A stretch of 24,757 nt of DNA from Priapulus caudatus. Taxonomy: Eukaryota > Priapulida > Priapulimorpha > Priapulimorphida > Priapulidae. Within the stretch, counting starts at the first letter, position 1. Every line of letters begins with the position of its first letter. A model generated the notes under the pieces. The model did not search any database. It was not told the origin of the DNA and worked only from the letters and a program-made list of their open reading frames with translations. The translations under genes were made by a program, and so were the position numbers. Shown here in pieces: positions 9,567 through 20,692 of this stretch. Location: contig NW_014577590.1 of assembly GCF_000485595.1 (NCBI RefSeq), positions 201,081 through 225,837 of the forward strand, given 5' to 3'.

Positions 9567-9748
9567 CTAGTTGTCACACAGGCCATACAGTATCTCGACT
9601 TCGTGATCATCAGAGACATCTAGAGGCGTCTCCAGCACAAGCGGAATTCCATCAAACCGTGGGTCGTTCATAAGAAACTGAAATCCTGCAATCCCAATGT
9701 GACCTTTACCAATGTTCTCGTGCCGGTCGAGGTGACAGCCCAGGGCAC
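9567..9748 (-). CDS. apn1: apn1 exon 6, with stop
   Basis: 182 bp, residues 862-921 and the stop at 9569-9567. The acceptor is TTAATACAG before GTGCCC. It encodes [15 protein letters not shown] with ligands Asp869 and His871, and LVLETPL with ligand Glu901. The C-terminus, ILYGLCDN, is at the normal family end. The intron before it is 353 bp (9749-10101). Confidence 0.95.
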
Positions 9749-12700
9749 CTGTATTAACAACAATGTTATCAACAAATGGCATGACAGGCAATGAGCGTTA
9801 CTAGAGTAAGCTGAGAATATTGACACACTCACATACTACACAATTGGCAAACGTACAAACAAGATTAACCCCAAAAGCACTGAGAGTAAATGTGCCATCA
9901 CAAATGACGCACCAACATTCAACAGTGAAATACAACGCAAATACGGAAATTCACAAGCACGATTATGATTTTGTCATCACGTGACGATGCGGATGCAGTC
10001 GTCAAATGCCTGCGCATTAAATTCCCACCAGTGAGGAATGCTAGAGGCACAGAAACCTGTGAGTCGGTGGCGTACGTTCCGGGAGAGAACGTCTGTCTCA
10101 CCTTTGGAGTCGTTGAGGTGAACGGCCTTGAGGTAGTTCATCCCGATGACGACCTTGAACTCATTCATCATGGCTTCGTATCCCAGCTTCGTCGCAAGGT
10201 CATGACCTGCGGCGAACGCGTGACACGTGTCCAGGCACACGCCAATCCTAGATTGGTCCTCGACTTTGTCGATGATCGCCCGCAACTCCTCGAACCTGCC
10301 GCGTGGAAAAACGTCAGCGCGAGACTAGATAGTGCGACGCAGTAGCGATGGGATGTGGTGGCAAGAGACAGGCACGACACCACCTCGACGCATTTAGAGT
10401 GCCACACAACATGCTAGTATCCAGGAAAGCAAGAAGGCAGCAGGTCATGGGACCTGGCGCTAGGGAGTGGGCGGGACACTTTGGTGGGTATCGAGTGAGA
10501 TGTCTCGGTGCATTTCGACTGCATTGTGACGAGTCGTTAGTTATGGGCGAGGCATCCAGTCGAGGTTAGAATGCCCGATGTACACATCGTTTGCTTTCAT
10601 CTCGTAATGGAATTCATGACAGAGGGTGCATCCATAAATTGCGTTAATTCCCGGCACTGTCGCGATCGCCTATGTAGCAGTGCAATATAGCCAAGCTGAT
10701 ACTAGCAGAGGCATCGTGCATGCCACGACGACGGCATGACCTTGGACACTGCATTTCTGTATGTCACGAGGATTACTCTAGGATGTGCAATCAGATGTGC
10801 TCTCTGATAACAGTAAAAGATCAATAACCTCTGCAAAATTCTGATTCACAATTTTCATGGCATTCCACCGCATACCAATTAATCATCGACTTGTAAAGTA
10901 GCTTTTATGTGCTTAAGGTGCGAAATTAACGGGAGTCCGGAGTCAAATACCCCCTGCTTTACTGTCGGACTCCCTGATTTGACATATACAGGAGTCCGTG
11001 TGACTCCCTGAAAATTCTGCCATACTAACTAGTTCGTTCCAGAGAACGGCCTCGCTGAATTACTGTATTTTTTCAGCTAATGTCCAAAGAAAATTTGGCA
11101 GACGTGCAACTGCATGAATCTTAAAAATTAAGCACATGCGTTATTGGTAATATCTTTAATTTTGAACCTCAGACTGCGGACTCCCTCATTTTGCTGCGGA
11201 CTCCCTCTTTTTGAGGGTAGAGAGTCCGTTGGACTCCCTTGTTCAAAAGTTAATTTCTATCCCTGGATATGGGACTGAGAATTGTTGTGGTGCTTTCTGA
11301 CACACTGAGACTCAGGAATCTATCTATTAACTCATGAGGCCACACTCAAGCAATGTCTGGTTTGCAGTGAGCTCGACCCAGTCTTTTAGTTGAATGTAGG
11401 TATAGTTCCACAAGATTGTGCTTTTGCTGGTGGCTGTCAAGCAGTATAGTCATATACGTACAATCATGAACCTATGTATATTCCAACTAGTAAACAAGTT
11501 ATTATTATATTACATAAATATTGTATAAATAAACAAATAGATATTTCATTATAAACATTTTTTTTCACAAATAGTCAGCATGGTTTGGACGAATTGGTTG
11601 GGCTTATACCAGACAAGAAATGCAAGGCCTGCCCCGTAACACTGTGCACGTCCTTGCCATTGCTGGTGTGTCCCTGATAAATGTATAACACATACTTCCC
11701 ACCAATGGTATGTTCCTGACAACAAATATATAGTACATACTTGCCACCTATGCTTTGTTCCTGACAGCTAGTCTATAGTACATGCTTTATATATATAATT
11801 GCCATGGATGGTGTGTTCCTGACAGCTAGTATATAATACATACTTGCCACCGATAGTGTATTCCTGACAACAAGTGTATAATACATACTTGCCACCGATA
11901 GTGTGTTCCTGGCAACATTAGAATAATTCATACTTGCCACCGATAGTGTGTTTGTGACAGCTAGTGTATAGTACATATTTGCCACTGATGCAATGTTCCT
12001 GACAACACATGAATAACTCATACTTGCCACCGATGGTATGTTCATGACAACTAGTGTAATATACATACTTGCCACCTATAGTCTGTTCCTGACAGCTAGT
12101 GTATAATACATAGTTGCCATCGATGCTATGCTCCTGACAACACATGAATAATACATACTTGCCACCGATAGTGTGTTCCTGACAGCTAGGATATAGTACA
12201 TACTTGCCACCGATGCTATGTTCCTGACAGCTAGTGTATAGTACATATAGTACATGCCTTATATATCAAATTGCCACTGATGGTGTGTCCCTGACAGCTA
12301 GTGTATAATACATACTTGCCACCGATGCTATGTTCCTGACAACACATGAATAATTCATATTTGCCACCTATATTGTGTTCCTGACAGCCAGATGAGACGG
12401 GATACAAGAGAAGTGTTGCCGAAAGGAGGTGTTGATTCTAACCGCTGAGCGCGGATCTTGCGCGCAGTTCCCCGGCAAGGCGCACACAACCGCGGGAACG
12501 TCGTACGACAGTATGCAGCGCTGGCAGCTATGGATCCGTGCGCCGAATGCATAGGCCGGCGCACGGATCCATAGCTGCCAGCAAACAGTCCGGAATTTTA
12601 GGGGGGACACAGAGGGCAGAGATTTGGGACGTGGGAGGAATTCGCGACGGGGGTCGTACAGATGGGGGGGGGCTAGAGCAAAGGTTTTGATTTCGCGGTG

Positions 12701-15700
12701 GTTTCATTTCCGTGTGGTCTTAGGCGTTTTCACTATAAGTTGTACAGCGCCCCATGGCGCCTGTCCTATGTAACACTTGATATATGAACATCAGAGAGAT
12801 CACACCATGATTGCATGAAGAAATGGATGACGATGTTGTATGAGAGAGTATGCGCATTATGTGGCTATTCGTAACATCGAACTGATTCCTCTGCGTATTG
12901 CTCTGCTCTGTGCTGCTACAGAACGTCATGACAGCAGTACATATGTCGTGTTGAAGGGAACTGTCACACAACACCACCTAACCATCTACTTTATCCACCA
13001 ACGAAACCAAACTCACAACTCGAACTGTGTTTTGTATATGGTGTTGGGGGTTAGTTGTATATATACTGCAGCAGTGAAAAAAATACACGGGGGCTCGGGG
13101 CGATTTAGCCCCGAAATGCCTAAAAGAGCCCCGGAAATGCCAAAAAGAGCCCCCGTAAATTTGCATAGAGTTCAATGCCAACAACATTTTAGAGTGCTAT
13201 TTTCATGCACGCGAGCTTGAAAAGTAGCCCCCGAAAAATAATTTTTTTCCCTGTACTGCAGTATATATGCAGTGTCAATACTGATGCTTCCCATCGCACA
13301 GCACATCAGCCAGCTGTACATGAGCCGGCAAAGGCAAAGTCTGCTGAGGCAGTTACAAGTATAACACACAAAGAAACCATCGAACCATCAAGAACACGAG
13401 TGAACAGCGGTATTTCCTTACTGCTTATAAGGCTGGTGAGGTAAATGGAATGAACGGTTACAAATACATCGCAATATATGCTGTTATATGCTAGGACTCT
13501 ATATGCTTTACATTGCACGGTCGTTCAATTGTCAGACATTGCGCGATGACATGCCCCACCAGGAAAATCAGGACACAGAAATAATGCATACGGAAGAATA
13601 CCCAATACTTCATCATTCACTAACCGCATACTTCAGCACCCGCGAAATGGTCGGTTCAAGGATAGAGATCATGGGTCCCATTGAGACCTATGTCATTTTC
13701 GTAAATGTGGGGGTAGCCCCTTTAAAATCGACAGGGGTGCTGTTGAGGGTGTTCTTTGTTCATTTCGACCGACAAACATGTGAGTTAACAGAGTGTCGAA
13801 AAAAATGCGTTGAAGCGACATTACTCGCCCGTTTTTGACTGTTTCTGACCATTGCGACGCGCGAGAATTTCCCGTCACCTTCCTCTGCTACGGCCCTGAA
13901 ATCTATGTGCGTATTTGCGCGTGCCATTTACGGACTCGTATTACTTTCTCTCCGAAATAAATTACCTGGAAATCCGTTGATATTCCGTCTTTTTTTGGGA
14001 ACTCATAAATCTGAGTGTACGAACGTCGAACGGGCGCTGGATAGAGTTTGGGGGGTTATAGTTAGACTGGTACCCATTCGCCACCTTCACTCGGGCAAGT
14101 ATCCTTCGCTACACTGAAGTTAGTGTAGCGTGTGGAACTGTCGACCGGGTACCAGTCTAGGTTATAGCCGGCCGAGCCGTCTGCAGGAAAGTGCTAGGCA
14201 AATGCTATGCATATAGCCTCGTTGCGCCATCTATTGCACGTTATATGTACTACACTGATATGGGGGCCTGAACTAGTCGCTGGCACAAAAAAGTTCAACT
14301 CCGTTTTTTACAGCAAACCAAGCGCGCCTAGTAGCGAACCAAGAATTACGACCATTTCTAGAAAATCTCTAGCTACGTGGGTAGTCAAACCCGTCGTGCA
14401 ATCGCCAGAACTGCTCAATTCAGCGATTGCCCCACAATTACGCTATATAGTAAACCCGTTGAAATTTCTATTCAATGAGTGCAGCGTTGTTGTGTTAGTG
14501 TGCCGCTACACAGCGTTTTTCGCGCTTCGCGCGATATCCGGGCTGCCGATCGTCTAGGGTATAGTACCTACTTGCCACCGATGGTGTGTCCCTGACAGCT
14601 AGTGTATAATACATACTTNNNNNNNNNNATAATACATACATGCCACTGATGGTGTGTTCCTGACAGCTAGTGTATAATACATACTTGCCACCGATGGTGT
14701 GTCCCTGACAGCACATGTTCTCCAGCAGGATCGTACAGTACTTCGTCTTGCGGTGAGCTAGGTTGACGCTCTCCGCTATTTTCTCGATGCACTCCTCTAC
14801 CGAAATCAGTCCACAGGTGGAGCCTGCGTCACAATCACCTCGGTTATAAAATGTTGCCAAAGAAGTGTGGTCGAGTAGAAAGGCATGCGCGTTACAAGTT
14901 TCCGCGCTCTTCCACATTTCTCCAGACTAAGCCGTAAATTTTAAATGGTTGCTGCCTATGAGACACAGAAAGGCTTTTCGATACAATTGCTGAAAATAGA
15001 TTTGCAAGGGCGTTGCTCTACCAGTGTGTGGCAACCACGTAGCTTATCATCCCGGTACACGAATTTTCCAGACCGTGACTGGAAGCAAACCCGGGAAATG
15101 ATTTCTCATGCATGCAATGGAATGCTACCTGGAATGCATGGAGGAAACTTCCGCCCATGATCACCCACGACCGCCCACGGATCAACCACGTCTCTGGCAC
15201 CCTATATCTGACGCCCGCTAGCCCACGCATGGACCACTGCCCTGCCGGTGGAACGACCCTGTGATGGCGATACTAACCCGGATGAAAATTGTAGAGCTGC
15301 AGTCCGAGCCGCTCGCAGCGTTGCACCTCCTCCACCAGGCCAGCTCTGCTCTTTACCAGAATCTCAGGGTTAGGAGCACCGCAGTTCAGCAGGTAGGAAG
15401 CTGAAATATGCGGCAAGAAAGCATACGATGAGCATCAGCCTGTGAACGTTAGCGAGGACAATGTTAAGTGCAGAGATAGGGCTGGTATTGAGATTATAAT
15501 AGCATGCTACATAACGGTTACAAATATTTTATAGATTTTTTTAGTTTTCTCCTACAATAAACTGAAAACTAGTGCAAGAATGCTGGCGACTGTTGGTGGT
15601 TAGACATAAACAAGCCAAAACATGCAACCCAGTTATATTCTTCCGTATAGATGCTGCCCTCTAGTGACTAAACATTGAAACACATACCTAAGAACTAGGA

Positions 15701-18241
15701 CCCGCGTGACTTACATATCTAATGAAATAACCACGCGAGAGTCGGATTCCTACATGATCCATCTATATCATATTATCAGCTCTACAATACCGTATGTGAC
15801 ATATCGAACATGAACAACTGAACATAAACATCGAATACAACAGAAGTAAGAGAACAGTGCGGCTGTCACGAACCATGAGGCACAATCAGATGAGGTTCGA
15901 AGCTGTGATCTTTACAGGCCTCCCTGAACTTTTCAATGACGTCGTCAGTCAGGGGTTTGCTCTCCCACTGACGCTGTGATCGTAGGAATATCGCAAAGCT
16001 TCTGGCCCCCAGAGCACTTGCATTAGCAAATGCATGCCATATACCACCTACAAGTATCACACATTACACATGCATCATACATGCACATCACACATACATG
16101 AAAAATCAACAATGCAGGTACATACATGTACACGTGCTTGCAATTTTGTGTGTTGTTGTTGTTATTACTGATCATGGAAAGAATACTTATCAATGCCAGA
16201 TTAATTCTTCCAGTTTGAAATTCCAGTCATTTGATAAAAAAGACCCCCGGGTACTATATAATGTGCTATGGTGAACACCTATCTTACCTGCGATAGACAC
16301 ATGCATTCCAACATACTTGTTCGCTCTGCTTGAGTATGAATCAGAGCTTGACATAGTAGTAGACACTTCCTTGAGAGTTTCAGGGGTAACTTTGGCAAGC
16401 TTATTCTCAGTGGTAATGACTTCAATGCGTGAAAACTTCTTCAGTGGTTCATCAACTTCTTCCTCATCCTTATTTGCAGACGGTTTAGTCATAACATGCC
16501 GTTTCTTTGCAGTGATGCTTCTAGTACGCTCCTCAGGCAGCTTGCTTTCAGAGTGTTCTTCTCCCTCTGCTAGTTGATCAATTTTCTCCTTAACAAATAA
16601 TTTATTCGTTGCCGCTTGTTTTTGTTCTGTAATTTCAACTTCCTTTTCCTTTACTGTTTTATTCTTAGCCTGTCGTTTCTTTGTTCCAAGTTCCTTGTTC
16701 CCATATAGCAGCTTGGCTTCAACTTGTTCTTTCTCTGCTAGTCCATCTACGTTGACCTTAATGAGTAGTTTACCTTTTGTCTGTCGTTTCATTGCTTTAA
16801 CTTTAGTTAGTTCCTCCTTATCAGACAGCTTATTCTTAGCTGTTTCTTCATCTGCCATGACTTCATCTTCATCTTCATGAAGTTGTTTTTGTTTATTCCT
16901 ACCCTGGCGTTTCTTTGCTGGAACTTTGACTAGTTCCTCTTTCTCAGACAGCTTACTCTCAGTGTTTTCTTCATCTGTAATAATTTCATCTTCATCTTTA
17001 CGAAGTTGTTTTTGTTTATTCCTAACCTGGCGTTTCTTTGCTGGAACTTTGACTAATTCCTCTTTCTCAGACAGCTTACTCTCAGTGTTGTCTTCATCTG
17101 TAATGATTTCATCTTCATCTTTACGAAGTTGTTTTTGTTTATTTCTAACCTGGTATTTCTTTGCTGGAACTTTGACTAATTCCTCTTTCTCAGACAGCTT
17201 ACTCTCAGTGTTTTCTTCATCTGCAATGATTTCATCTTCATCTTTACGAAGTTGTTCTCGTTTATTCCTAACCTGGCGTTTCTTTGCTGGAACTTTGGCT
17301 AATTCCTCTTTCTCAGATAGCTTACTCTCAGTGTTTTTTTCATCTGCAATGATTTCATCTTCATCGTCATGAAGTTGCTTTTGTTTATTCCTAACCTGGC
17401 GTTTCTTTGCTGGAACTTTGACTAGTTCTTCATTCTTGGTCAGTTTGTTTGCAGCATTATCTTCCTGTGCTAGTTCCTTATCCTCAGCCTTATCATTTTC
17501 CTTACTCTTAGCCTGTCTTTTCTTTGCAGTAAGTCGAGGTATCTGTGTGTCAGGTAGCCAGCTCTCACTTTGTTCTTTCTCTTCTAGTACACTGTCTTCA
17601 TCTCTATGAAGTTGTTGTTGTTCCTTCCTAATCTGCCGTTTCCTAGTTGGAACTTGGTTGGGTGGAGCATTATTTGGATCTTCATTTTCAGGTCGCTTGT
17701 CATCATCTAGTTTTTCCTTCATTAGTATATTGTCTTCAGCCCTACAAAGTTGTTTAGTCTTCAACTGTCGTTTCTTTCCTGTAAGTACAATCAGTTCCTT
17801 CTCCTCAGGAAGTTTGCTCTCAGCTTGATCTGTCTTTGCTATTATTTCATCTTCAACCTTAAGAAGTTGTTTGTTTCTATTCTGTCGTTTCCTTGCCGGA
17901 ACATTAAGCTCCTTTCTATCATGGAGCTTGTTATCAGCTTGCTTTTCTTTAGCTGTTATTTTACCTTCAATCTTAAGAAGTTGTCTATTTCTAATTTGGC
18001 GTTTCTTTGCTGGAACTTTTTCCTGCTTAGGAAGCTTATTTTCACTTTGATCTGTCACTGCTATTATTTTATCTTCATCCTTTAGAATTTGTTTATTTCT
18101 AATCAGTCGTTTCTTTGCTGGAACTGTAGGCTCATTGTCCTCAGACAGATTGCTCCTACTTTGATCCTCCGCTGCTATTATTTCATCTTCCACCTCAACA
18201 GGTAATTTATTACGAGTACGCTGTCTTGATTTTGCTGGCAT
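9567..18241 (-). CDS. apn1: endonuclease IV (APN1/Nfo-type AP endonuclease), six exons, with repetitive N-terminal extension
   Basis: The family cuts DNA 5' of abasic sites and removes 3' blocking groups in base-excision repair, using three metal ions (usually zinc). The six exons join in phase to 2766 nt, 921 residues plus stop. The catalytic domain is residues about 642-921, the usual length. By count the nine metal ligands are His709, His749, Glu785, Asp819, His822, His856, Asp869, His871 and Glu901. Their successive spacings (40, 36, 34, 3, 34, 13, 2, 30) equal those of E. coli Nfo His69 to Glu261. Residues 1-640 are about 15 degenerate repeats around PAKKRQxRNK, likely nuclear and nucleic-acid-binding (inference). 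The start chosen is the ATG at 18241, just inside an exon whose 3' splice site ends at 18271. All introns are GT-AG. Mammals lack this family, but it occurs in several invertebrates and in fungi. Confidence 0.95.
10102..10295 (-). CDS. apn1: apn1 exon 5
   Basis: 194 bp, residues 797-861 plus one base. The acceptor is CGCGGCAG before GTTCGAGG and the donor is AAAG followed by GTGAGA. It carries [24 protein letters not shown] with ligands Asp819 and His822, and KAVHLNDSK with ligand His856. It is separated from exon 4 by a repeat-filled 4389-bp intron (10296-14684). Confidence 0.95.
10922..11257. mobile_element. MITE-like element rich in GGACTCCC words, in apn1 intron 4
   Basis: The ends carry GAAATTAAC (10922-10930) and its reverse complement GTTAATTTC (11249-11257). 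Each is followed inward by GGGAGTCC or its complement. The octamer GGACTCCC occurs five times on either strand (10931, 10967, 11178, 11198, 11231), with three near-matches. No open frame is present. The inverted ends and lack of coding suggest a non-autonomous DNA element. No clean target duplication was found. Confidence 0.5.
11650..12388. repeat. 45-bp minisatellite, block 1, about 16 units (apn1 intron 4)
   Basis: Units repeat every 45 bp around ACTTGCCACCGATGGTGTG, with some length changes near 11770-11800 and 12240-12270. Read on the gene's strand, each unit contains GTCAGGAACACACC, then GGTGGCAA followed by GTATGTA: the end of exon 4 and its donor. Nine units keep CATACTTGCC exactly (plus strand). 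Two versions exist: most read TATACACTAGCTGTCAGG, while some read TTCATGTGTTGTCAGG, closer to the exon (ACATGTGCTGTCAGG). Minus-strand open frames show the 15-residue period [15 protein letters not shown]. Confidence 0.95.
12520..12582. repeat. perfect 26-bp-stem hairpin
   Basis: Arms 12520-12545 and 12557-12582 are exact reverse complements, with an 11-base loop. The left arm begins GCTGGCAGCTATGGATCC. Both arms pass through short minus-strand open frames. No target duplication lies at its edges. Confidence 0.9.
13054..13271. mobile_element. MITE-like element with about 45-bp inverted ends
   Basis: The left end (about 13054-13100) and the reverse complement of the right end (about 13224-13271) align over TATATATACTGCAG, GAAAAAAAT and CGGGGGCT with small gaps. 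Inside, GCCCCGAAATGCC-type units repeat about every 22 bp (13108-13155). There is no credible coding. The AT-rich ends could hide a TA target duplication. Confidence 0.55.
14063..14557 (+). mobile_element. dispersed 0.5-kb repeat, copy 1, with foldback 5' end
   Basis: Aligns along its length with 20187-20692 at roughly nine in ten positions by eye. It starts TAGACTGGTACCC and ends GTCTAG. The first 98 bp fold back: TAGACTGGTACCC pairs with GGGTACCAGTCTA (14147-14159), with an inner stem CGCTACAC/GTGTAGCG. Near the 3' end a CGCG-CTTCG-CGCG hairpin precedes CTAG, which recalls Helitron ends, but the TC start and A/T insertion site expected of Helitrons are not clear. Unclassified non-autonomous element. 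Confidence 0.7.
14558..14684. repeat. 45-bp minisatellite, block 2, beginning at the apn1 exon 4 donor
   Basis: About three units, with ten N at 14619-14628 (an assembly gap, so the unit number is unknown). The last unit runs directly into exon 4: the donor GTATGT at 14684-14679 is the same as the donor-like site inside the other units. The unit next to it reads GGCATGTATGTA and the following complete one GGCAAGTAGGTA. Confidence 0.93.
14685..14823 (-). CDS. apn1: apn1 exon 4; its 3' end is also a minisatellite monomer
   Basis: 139 bp, completing residue 751 and encoding 752-796 plus two bases of codon 797. The acceptor is GACGCAG before GCTCC and the donor is GGCAA followed by GTATGT. It contains STCG, the conserved helix and ILLEN with metal ligand Glu785 (E. 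coli Glu145), then QGHTIGG. The last roughly 33 nt and the donor match the 45-bp repeat that fills the next intron. The join to exon 5 restores the 34-residue Glu145-Asp179 spacing of the family exactly, so this donor is the functional one. Using a later donor would insert extra 15-residue blocks. Confidence 0.93.
15278..15400 (-). CDS. apn1: apn1 exon 3
   Basis: 123 bp, residues 710-750 plus one base. The acceptor is ATATTTCAG before CTTCC and the donor is CCGG followed by GTTAGT. It begins [10 protein letters not shown] and ends LYNFHP, with metal ligand His749 (E. coli His109). The HPG motif is completed by exon 4. The following intron is 454 bp (14824-15277). Confidence 0.93.
15874..16047 (-). 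CDS. apn1: apn1 exon 2
   Basis: 174 bp, residues 652-709. The acceptor is TTGTAG before GTGGTAT and the donor is CATG followed by GTTCGT. It encodes the family motif [11 protein letters not shown] and ends at metal ligand His709 (E. coli His69). The flanking introns are 240 bp (16048-16287) and 473 bp (15401-15873). Phases on both sides join without a stop. Confidence 0.93.
16288..18241 (-). CDS. apn1: apn1 exon 1: Lys/Arg/Glu repeat region and first residues of the endonuclease fold
   Basis: This exon encodes residues 1-651 and the first base of codon 652. About 15 repeats each carry a basic core ([10 protein letters not shown] and variants), then an acidic stretch (DEDEII) and [10 protein letters not shown]. 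Repeats at residues about 265-465 are five near-identical 41-residue (123-bp) units, so recently amplified; the others are more diverged and vary in length. The last residues, [10 protein letters not shown], are strand 1 of endonuclease IV. The donor is CAG followed by GTAAGA. The exon is A+T-rich with AAA/GAA codons, unlike the G+C-rich exons 2-6. No membrane segment or signal peptide is seen. The basic cores look like nuclear-localisation motifs. Confidence 0.92.
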
Positions 18242-20186: not shown

Positions 20187-20692
20187 TAGACTGGTACCCG
20201 TTCGCCACCTTCACTCCGGCAAGTATCCTTCGCTACACTGAAGTTAGTTAGTGTAGCGTGTGGAACTGTCGACCGGGTACCAGTCTAGGTTAAAGCCGGC
20301 TGAGCCGTCCGCACGAAAAGTGCTAGCGAAATTCTATGCATATAGCCTCGTTGTGCCATCTATCGCGCGCCATATGTACTACAGTACTACACTGATGTGG
20401 GGGCCTCAACTAGTCGCTCCCACAAAAAAGTTCAACTCCGTTTTTTACAGCAAACCAAGCGCGCCGAGTAGCGAACCAAGAATTACGACCATTTCTAGGA
20501 AATCTCTAGCTACGTGGGTAGTCAAACCCGTCGTGCAATCGCCAGAACTGCTCAATTCAGCGAACTTGCTGCTTACTTGCTATATGTAAACCCGTTGAAA
20601 TTGCTATTCAATGAGTGCAGCGTTGTTGTGTTAGTCTGCCGCTACGCTGCGTTTTTCGCGCTTCGCTCGTGATCCGGCTGCCGATTGTCTAG
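20187..20692 (+). mobile_element. dispersed 0.5-kb repeat, copy 2, with foldback 5' end
   Basis: The second copy of the 14063-14557 repeat, in the same orientation. The 5' foldback (TAGACTGGTACCC with GGGTACCAGTCTA) and the 3' GTCTAG are kept. Differences include a four-base duplication (AGTT) in the inner loop and a short indel near 20385. Its left flank is unrelated to that of copy 1, so the shared unit ends at TAGACTGG. Confidence 0.7.

Follow-up and report, generated by a model that had tools for sequence, protein, structure and literature searches.

The fourth intron of apn1, the endonuclease IV gene on the minus strand of a 24.8-kb stretch of the Priapulus caudatus genome (24,757 nt of contig NW_014577590.1; hereafter the window), carries a 45-bp minisatellite whose unit matches the end of exon 4 together with the adjoining splice donor. 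Very probably, this array is a mirage minisatellite that was born from a local duplication of the exon 4/intron 4 junction and was later expanded and interrupted. Mirages are tandem duplications of exon/intron boundaries and are described, in the accessible text of the amphioxus reports, for Adh3 and the globins BflGb6 and BflGb9 (PMC3087553). The kind is already known; what is new is the apn1 case in a priapulid and the presence of junction copies at protein-kinase exons.

The junction segment 14717-14673 (minus strand; 33 exonic and 12 intronic nt) aligned with the array consensus without gaps and was identical to it at 41/45 positions. Scored against this consensus, 17 array units reached 35-42 and the degenerate last unit 26, compared with 25 for the best window outside the exon end and the array on both strands of the window (the scan rows omit one window at 12256, which overlaps a spacer, as well as background peaks scoring no higher than 25). 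These values confirmed the proposal of the initial annotation that the exon 4 end and its donor are the monomer of the array. The array had also been taken for one continuous tract, which it is not: it falls into two blocks with about 2.2 kb of other DNA between them (Table 1). Tandem Repeats Finder detected the 45-bp array in the window together with a 135-bp period, and the mean pairwise identity per unit ranged from 0.71 to 0.83 among the array units. Part of the DNA between the blocks is an interspersed element (14063-14557) that has a second copy at 20187-20692, 89.8% identical; one copy of this element abuts an array unit. Also between the blocks, a perfect inverted repeat with arms of 25 nt around a 13-nt loop occupies 12520-12582, and further along intron 4 a 165-nt repeat (10917-11081) matches a sequence elsewhere on the contig (L038, 2061-2225) at 90.9% identity.

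The gene that hosts the array is intact. Its six exons join into an open frame of 921 residues across five GT-AG introns, and the C-terminal 281 residues of the product are endonuclease IV/Apn1 (PDB 1qtw, E 5.6e-87). The best 120 relatives listed for the protein are 56-66% identical, and those that are named belong to animals and one oomycete; no Priapulus Apn1 model was among the best 120 of either protein list used here. The end of exon 4 encodes the motif E-N-M-[SCA]-[CKGRN]-Q-G-x-T-[VIL]-G-G, which is present in 120/120 listed relatives, eight of which have MCC itself. A second list of 120 longer relatives also includes fungi, algae and protists; 97 of these 120 fit a looser pattern, and methionine follows the second residue in 92 of the 97. 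The motif had been described as ancient and conserved, and it is, but the sequence here is ENMCCQG rather than ENxxGQG.

Array units encode the exon 4 motif in the same frame, with an 11-residue peptide in unit 12348 and a 15-residue peptide in many units, and the array consensus satisfies 9/11 motif positions where 20,000 shuffles reached at most 7. Within the units, the invariant glycine of QG is replaced by Glu in 14/18 and by Lys in one, and differences from the exon number 24, 42 and 52 of 198 over the three codon positions (degenerate unit included). Because differences occur at all three codon positions and this glycine is lost, the array therefore stands outside the constraint on this coding sequence. 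Three units (12348, 12146 and 12011) keep CATGTG, the exon-like start that codes the invariant methionine, in line with the earlier observation that some units retain the exon-like version; a tree built from the exon together with 17 units grouped the exon with these three at weak support (0.57). Unit 11686 was included in the codon and motif counts and left out of the tree. Abundance of the unit across the genome had been named as a result that would speak against an origin from the exon, but a pattern search of the 385-Mb genome (at most 3 mismatches) placed 16/16 matches at the apn1 locus, the exon itself included, and a DNA search, which skips very common words, placed 10/10 there. The unit does not occur at many genomic places as a dispersed satellite does. 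Since the motif is common to 120/120 relatives, the units keep it in frame and the unit is confined to a single locus, a direction from exon to array is well supported, as is the earlier suggestion that a coding/splice-site junction seeded the array.

A partial second copy of the 3' end of apn1, recent in origin and comprising part of exon 5 and exon 6, lies on another contig (C1024, 62874-63577; L083), and a further apn1 exon 6 is found on the same contig at 109117-109302. In the 3-kb stretch compared, 274 nt match the window at 98.2%, and no exon 4, intron 4 or array was found in the part examined (best unit match 25/45). Because the match begins inside exon 5, without intron 4 or array, this copy does not date the array.

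We found eight exact occurrences of CAAGTATGTA on the minus strand, one of which is the authentic donor, leaving seven decoys; the other units are altered. The initial annotation counted at least nine intact decoys, a number that is reached only by counting AAGTATGT, which adds unit 11728 and the unit cut by the assembly gap. When a donor-like site was defined as 7/9 or better to the donor consensus CAG/GTAAGT, intron 4 held ten such sites besides the authentic one, nine of them in the array blocks (two proximal, seven distal). The two readable proximal donors, CATGTATGT and CAAGTAGGT, differ from the authentic one. Joining exon 4 to exon 5 places 34 residues between a Glu and an Asp that we take to be metal ligands; as had been anticipated, this is the spacing of the family, with 34 residues in 119/120 relatives and 36 in one. 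Our choice of 14684/14685 as the putative authentic donor is read from this protein conservation across the join only. Most of the decoy donors are probably silent, with the spliceosome keeping the outermost, exon-attached donor in use because no other copy is part of a complete exon that has an acceptor of its own. Since the unit is 45 nt long, a proximal decoy, if used, is predicted to lengthen the stretch between the two metal ligands by 15 in-frame residues per unit.

Table 1. The apn1 gene, the intron 4 array and the kinase loci with copied splice junctions (coordinates are positions in the window).
Feature	Position or locus	Strand	Remarks
apn1 exon 1	16288..18241	-	gene model; coding from 18241; long Lys/Glu-rich repetitive N-terminal part, then start of endonuclease IV domain
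apn1 exon 2	15874..16047	-	gene model
apn1 exon 3	15278..15400	-	gene model
apn1 exon 4	14685..14823	-	gene model; final 33 nt (14717-14685) correspond to the exonic part of the unit
Authentic donor GTATGT with adjoining intron bases	14673..14684	-	12-nt intronic part of the unit
Intron 4	10296..14684	-	4,389 nt; acceptor TCCACGCGGCAG
Proximal array block	14558..14672	-	two readable units and one cut by gap
10-N assembly gap in proximal block	14619..14628		copy number at gap uncertain
Non-array DNA between blocks	12394..14557		about 2.2 kb; no unit inside
Distal array block	11642 (about)..12393	-	16 units, one of them degenerate and two with a spacer after them; seven decoy donors with exact CAAGTATGTA
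apn1 exon 5	10102..10295	-	gene model
apn1 exon 6, stop codon included	9567..9748	-	gene model
Donor junction copies at kinase exons	L049, L050, L059 (two copies), L077 (two), L079
Acceptor junction copies at kinase exons	L056 (two), L047

Exon 1 of apn1 contains coding minisatellites of its own at 16781-17436 and 17805-18125 (a 123-bp unit in 5.3 copies and a 114-bp unit in 2.9 copies), which give rise to the Lys/Glu-rich repeat ahead of the enzyme domain. Rfam and tRNA scans of the window returned no match.

Comparison with the amphioxus structures indicated both likeness and difference. As far as the accessible text of these papers goes, a further mirage is present in TnC, with related repeats in PGBD5 (PMC3902484), and unit sizes are 10-72 bp in Adh3 and 150-160 bp in the globins (PMC3087553); the mirages reportedly leave splicing undisturbed, vary in length and have been proposed as a source of new introns (PMC3087553, PMC3902484). 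The apn1 array has a boundary-spanning unit, a unit of minisatellite size (45 bp) and splice signals in many copies, and it shows the features of the mirage kind that can be checked in sequence. Like the mirages described in those pages, which copy either the donor or the acceptor side, it consists of tandem boundary copies within an intron whose splice signals are intact in many copies, not all. Unlike them, it belongs to the phylum Priapulida; length instability, between alleles or tissues, and undisturbed splicing are known from the amphioxus reports only. No structure called a mirage outside amphioxus was found in the open-licence literature searched. The nearest other case found, judging from the available portion of the source, is that of human genes in segmental duplications, where minisatellites at exon-intron boundaries can alter splicing and form introns (PMC2812944); those repeats represent variation between recent paralogues, whereas in apn1 a single-copy exon edge appears to have seeded an intronic array. 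Intronic minisatellites are also described in earthworm metallothionein, with no exon-edge origin seen in the accessible part of that report (PMC12783039).

Copies of splice junctions were also found at other genes. A genome profile search with PF00069 gave 143 matches, and 42 stretches holding 66 of these exons were taken; the exons, mostly short internal ones, were hand-picked from the match table before any sequence was seen and were not chosen for repeats. Every exon, extended by 12 nt in either direction, was searched for in the flanks of its own locus and in those of the other 41, same strand only and with exons masked. With a cut-off of 35 bits, 7/66 exons matched their own flank, compared with 7/2,706 exon-locus pairs elsewhere (expected 0.17; Fisher p 9e-9). 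All seven have a copy that spans a splice junction, five at donors and two at acceptors, and the seven stretches contain no N gaps. The clearest case is L050, in which 45/47 nt are identical 113 nt downstream of the exon, donor included. Six of the seven BLAST matches cover the splice junction themselves; the exception is L047, where the domain match runs beyond the exon, so that the BLAST match falls within the intron; the junction copy of this locus (25 nt exact, 62 nt upstream) was detected separately. Both copies in L077, one of those in L059 and the upstream one in L056 carry changes at the splice dinucleotide or in the bases around it. In L056, the acceptor region has been copied both upstream and downstream of the exon, so that one copy lies on the exon's far side; both copies end at the same exon position and are joined to CCTCAC-type repeats, and a minus-strand match is present as well.

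The L047 locus, which encodes a TAO kinase, also carries a 23-bp array (about 28 copies). The acceptor GTGTTACAG is contained in the array unit, and the array is tied to this locus (8/9 pattern matches). The resemblance of its unit to the acceptor and exon start is moderate, with a score of 21 that was reached by 9/5,000 shuffles (maximum 25) and by 0/1,617 downstream 24-mers. Simple repeats and intron-only arrays were not counted as junction copies (L046, L055, the GGTGAG repeat of L056, L062, L065, which reached 33 bits only, and L071), nor were the repeats near L078 or the GA-rich stretch of L079. In L062, a 10-bp array (TATGTGTATA, about 92 copies, about 1140-2100) starts just past the kinase exon donor and resembles the first intron bases only. 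On contig C2952 (14,919 bp), a COX1 gene matches the Priapulus caudatus one at 100% identity, which identifies the 385-Mb genome as that of this priapulid. A COX1-like stretch with TGA, TAG and TAA stops was seen on contig C1568 (75493-76781; L028, L029); it may be mitochondrial DNA copied into the nucleus or may come from another organism.

The sequence itself shows that exon and array share the junction, that the exon came first, that the array is split and confined to one locus, and that similar cases exist at other loci; the following steps and their order are what we infer. A short local tandem duplication, starting 33 nt ahead of the exon 4 end and reaching 12 nt into intron 4, would have placed a second exon end and donor in the intron. 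Slippage or unequal exchange would then have expanded the duplicated junction to a 45-bp minisatellite, and other DNA would subsequently have been inserted, splitting the array.

A contrary origin, in which the minisatellite existed beforehand and gave rise to the exon end and donor, either by exonisation or by conversion of the exon by the array, was rejected as highly improbable. Exchange between exon and array is conceivable, given that the exon resembles some units closely (12348 at 0.91, 14604 at 0.89), but the exon keeps the motif of all 120 relatives where most units have the invariant glycine replaced by Glu, and one has it replaced by Lys, and the unit was found nowhere else in the genome. 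We also rejected, as very unlikely, the idea that intron 4 itself arose by tandem duplication of exonic sequence and that the array is the remnant of this event. Local duplication carries a splice site in apn1 just as it does in the model of intron gain by tandem genomic duplication of Rogers (PMC4974935, PMC3087553), donors have been duplicated at the exon edge, and mirage-derived introns have been proposed, in the text available to us, for the amphioxus globins (PMC3087553). In that model, as presented in the accessible text, however, the splice sites of the new intron come from the duplicated block, whereas only the donor side is copied in apn1: the last 1.3 kb of intron 4 (10296-11641) contains no unit match above background, and its acceptor side does not derive from a duplicated block.

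It is unlikely, if less so, that the array is functional, with its decoy donors yielding isoforms with 15-residue inserts or slowing apn1 splicing. Most donor-like sites of intron 4 (9/10) lie in the array, the unit has a length divisible by three and the first proximal unit can be read through in frame; yet an insert between the ligands would break the spacing kept by 119/120 relatives, the two readable proximal donors are unlike the authentic one, use of a distal decoy would retain about 2.2 kb of other DNA, and amphioxus mirages reportedly leave splicing undisturbed in the accessible text (PMC3087553, PMC3902484). Finally, we give almost no credence to an assembly artefact in which haplotypes were collapsed or mis-joined: the proximal block does contain a 10-N gap and one of the kinase loci, L056, shows a 76-nt copy that is 100% identical, but the array units differ mutually (0.71-0.83), and the kinase loci lack N gaps and most of their junction copies have diverged.

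Several observations weigh against our account of duplication, expansion and interruption at a splice junction. That the array came first and the insertion later is read from the layout only. The 135-bp higher-order period is weak, because among eight contiguous units the identity at lag 5 (0.84, three pairs) exceeds that at lag 3 (0.81; 0.75 at lag 1). Random non-exonic segments, equal in number and length and drawn from the same loci, matched their own surroundings in 1, 5, 2, 5 and 3 of 66 in five draws; pooled (16/330), these are not clearly fewer than the 7/66 exons (p 0.08). On the opposite (minus) strand, 1/66 exons matched its own flank (p 0.06). When the threshold was lowered to 30 bits, the contrast with introns was weaker (8/66 exons; 1, 7, 5, 7 and 6 of 66 non-exonic segments). 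Nothing special about junctions was demonstrated. Direct local duplication is frequent in the surroundings of these genes, so that junction copies require no special mechanism and mirages look like a by-product of it.

The sampled rate of 7/66 kinase exons has a 95% interval of 4-21%; it comes from one protein family in one animal genome and says nothing on whether one in ten is unusual. We consider the chances about even that around one in ten Priapulus caudatus exons is accompanied by a copy of its own splice junction in the flanking introns, that mirages are not confined to amphioxus, that spliceosomes must routinely choose the outermost of near-identical sites, and that the copies form a standing supply for splice variants and introns. 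In apn1, we have what appears to be a clear case of a coding/splice junction seeding a minisatellite, its direction fixed by protein conservation, and the amphioxus mirage phenomenon now has a counterpart in a distant phylum. If the frequency holds genome-wide, priapulids and lancelets would lend themselves naturally to studying how splice sites are distinguished from exact copies close by, and whether junction copies become new introns.

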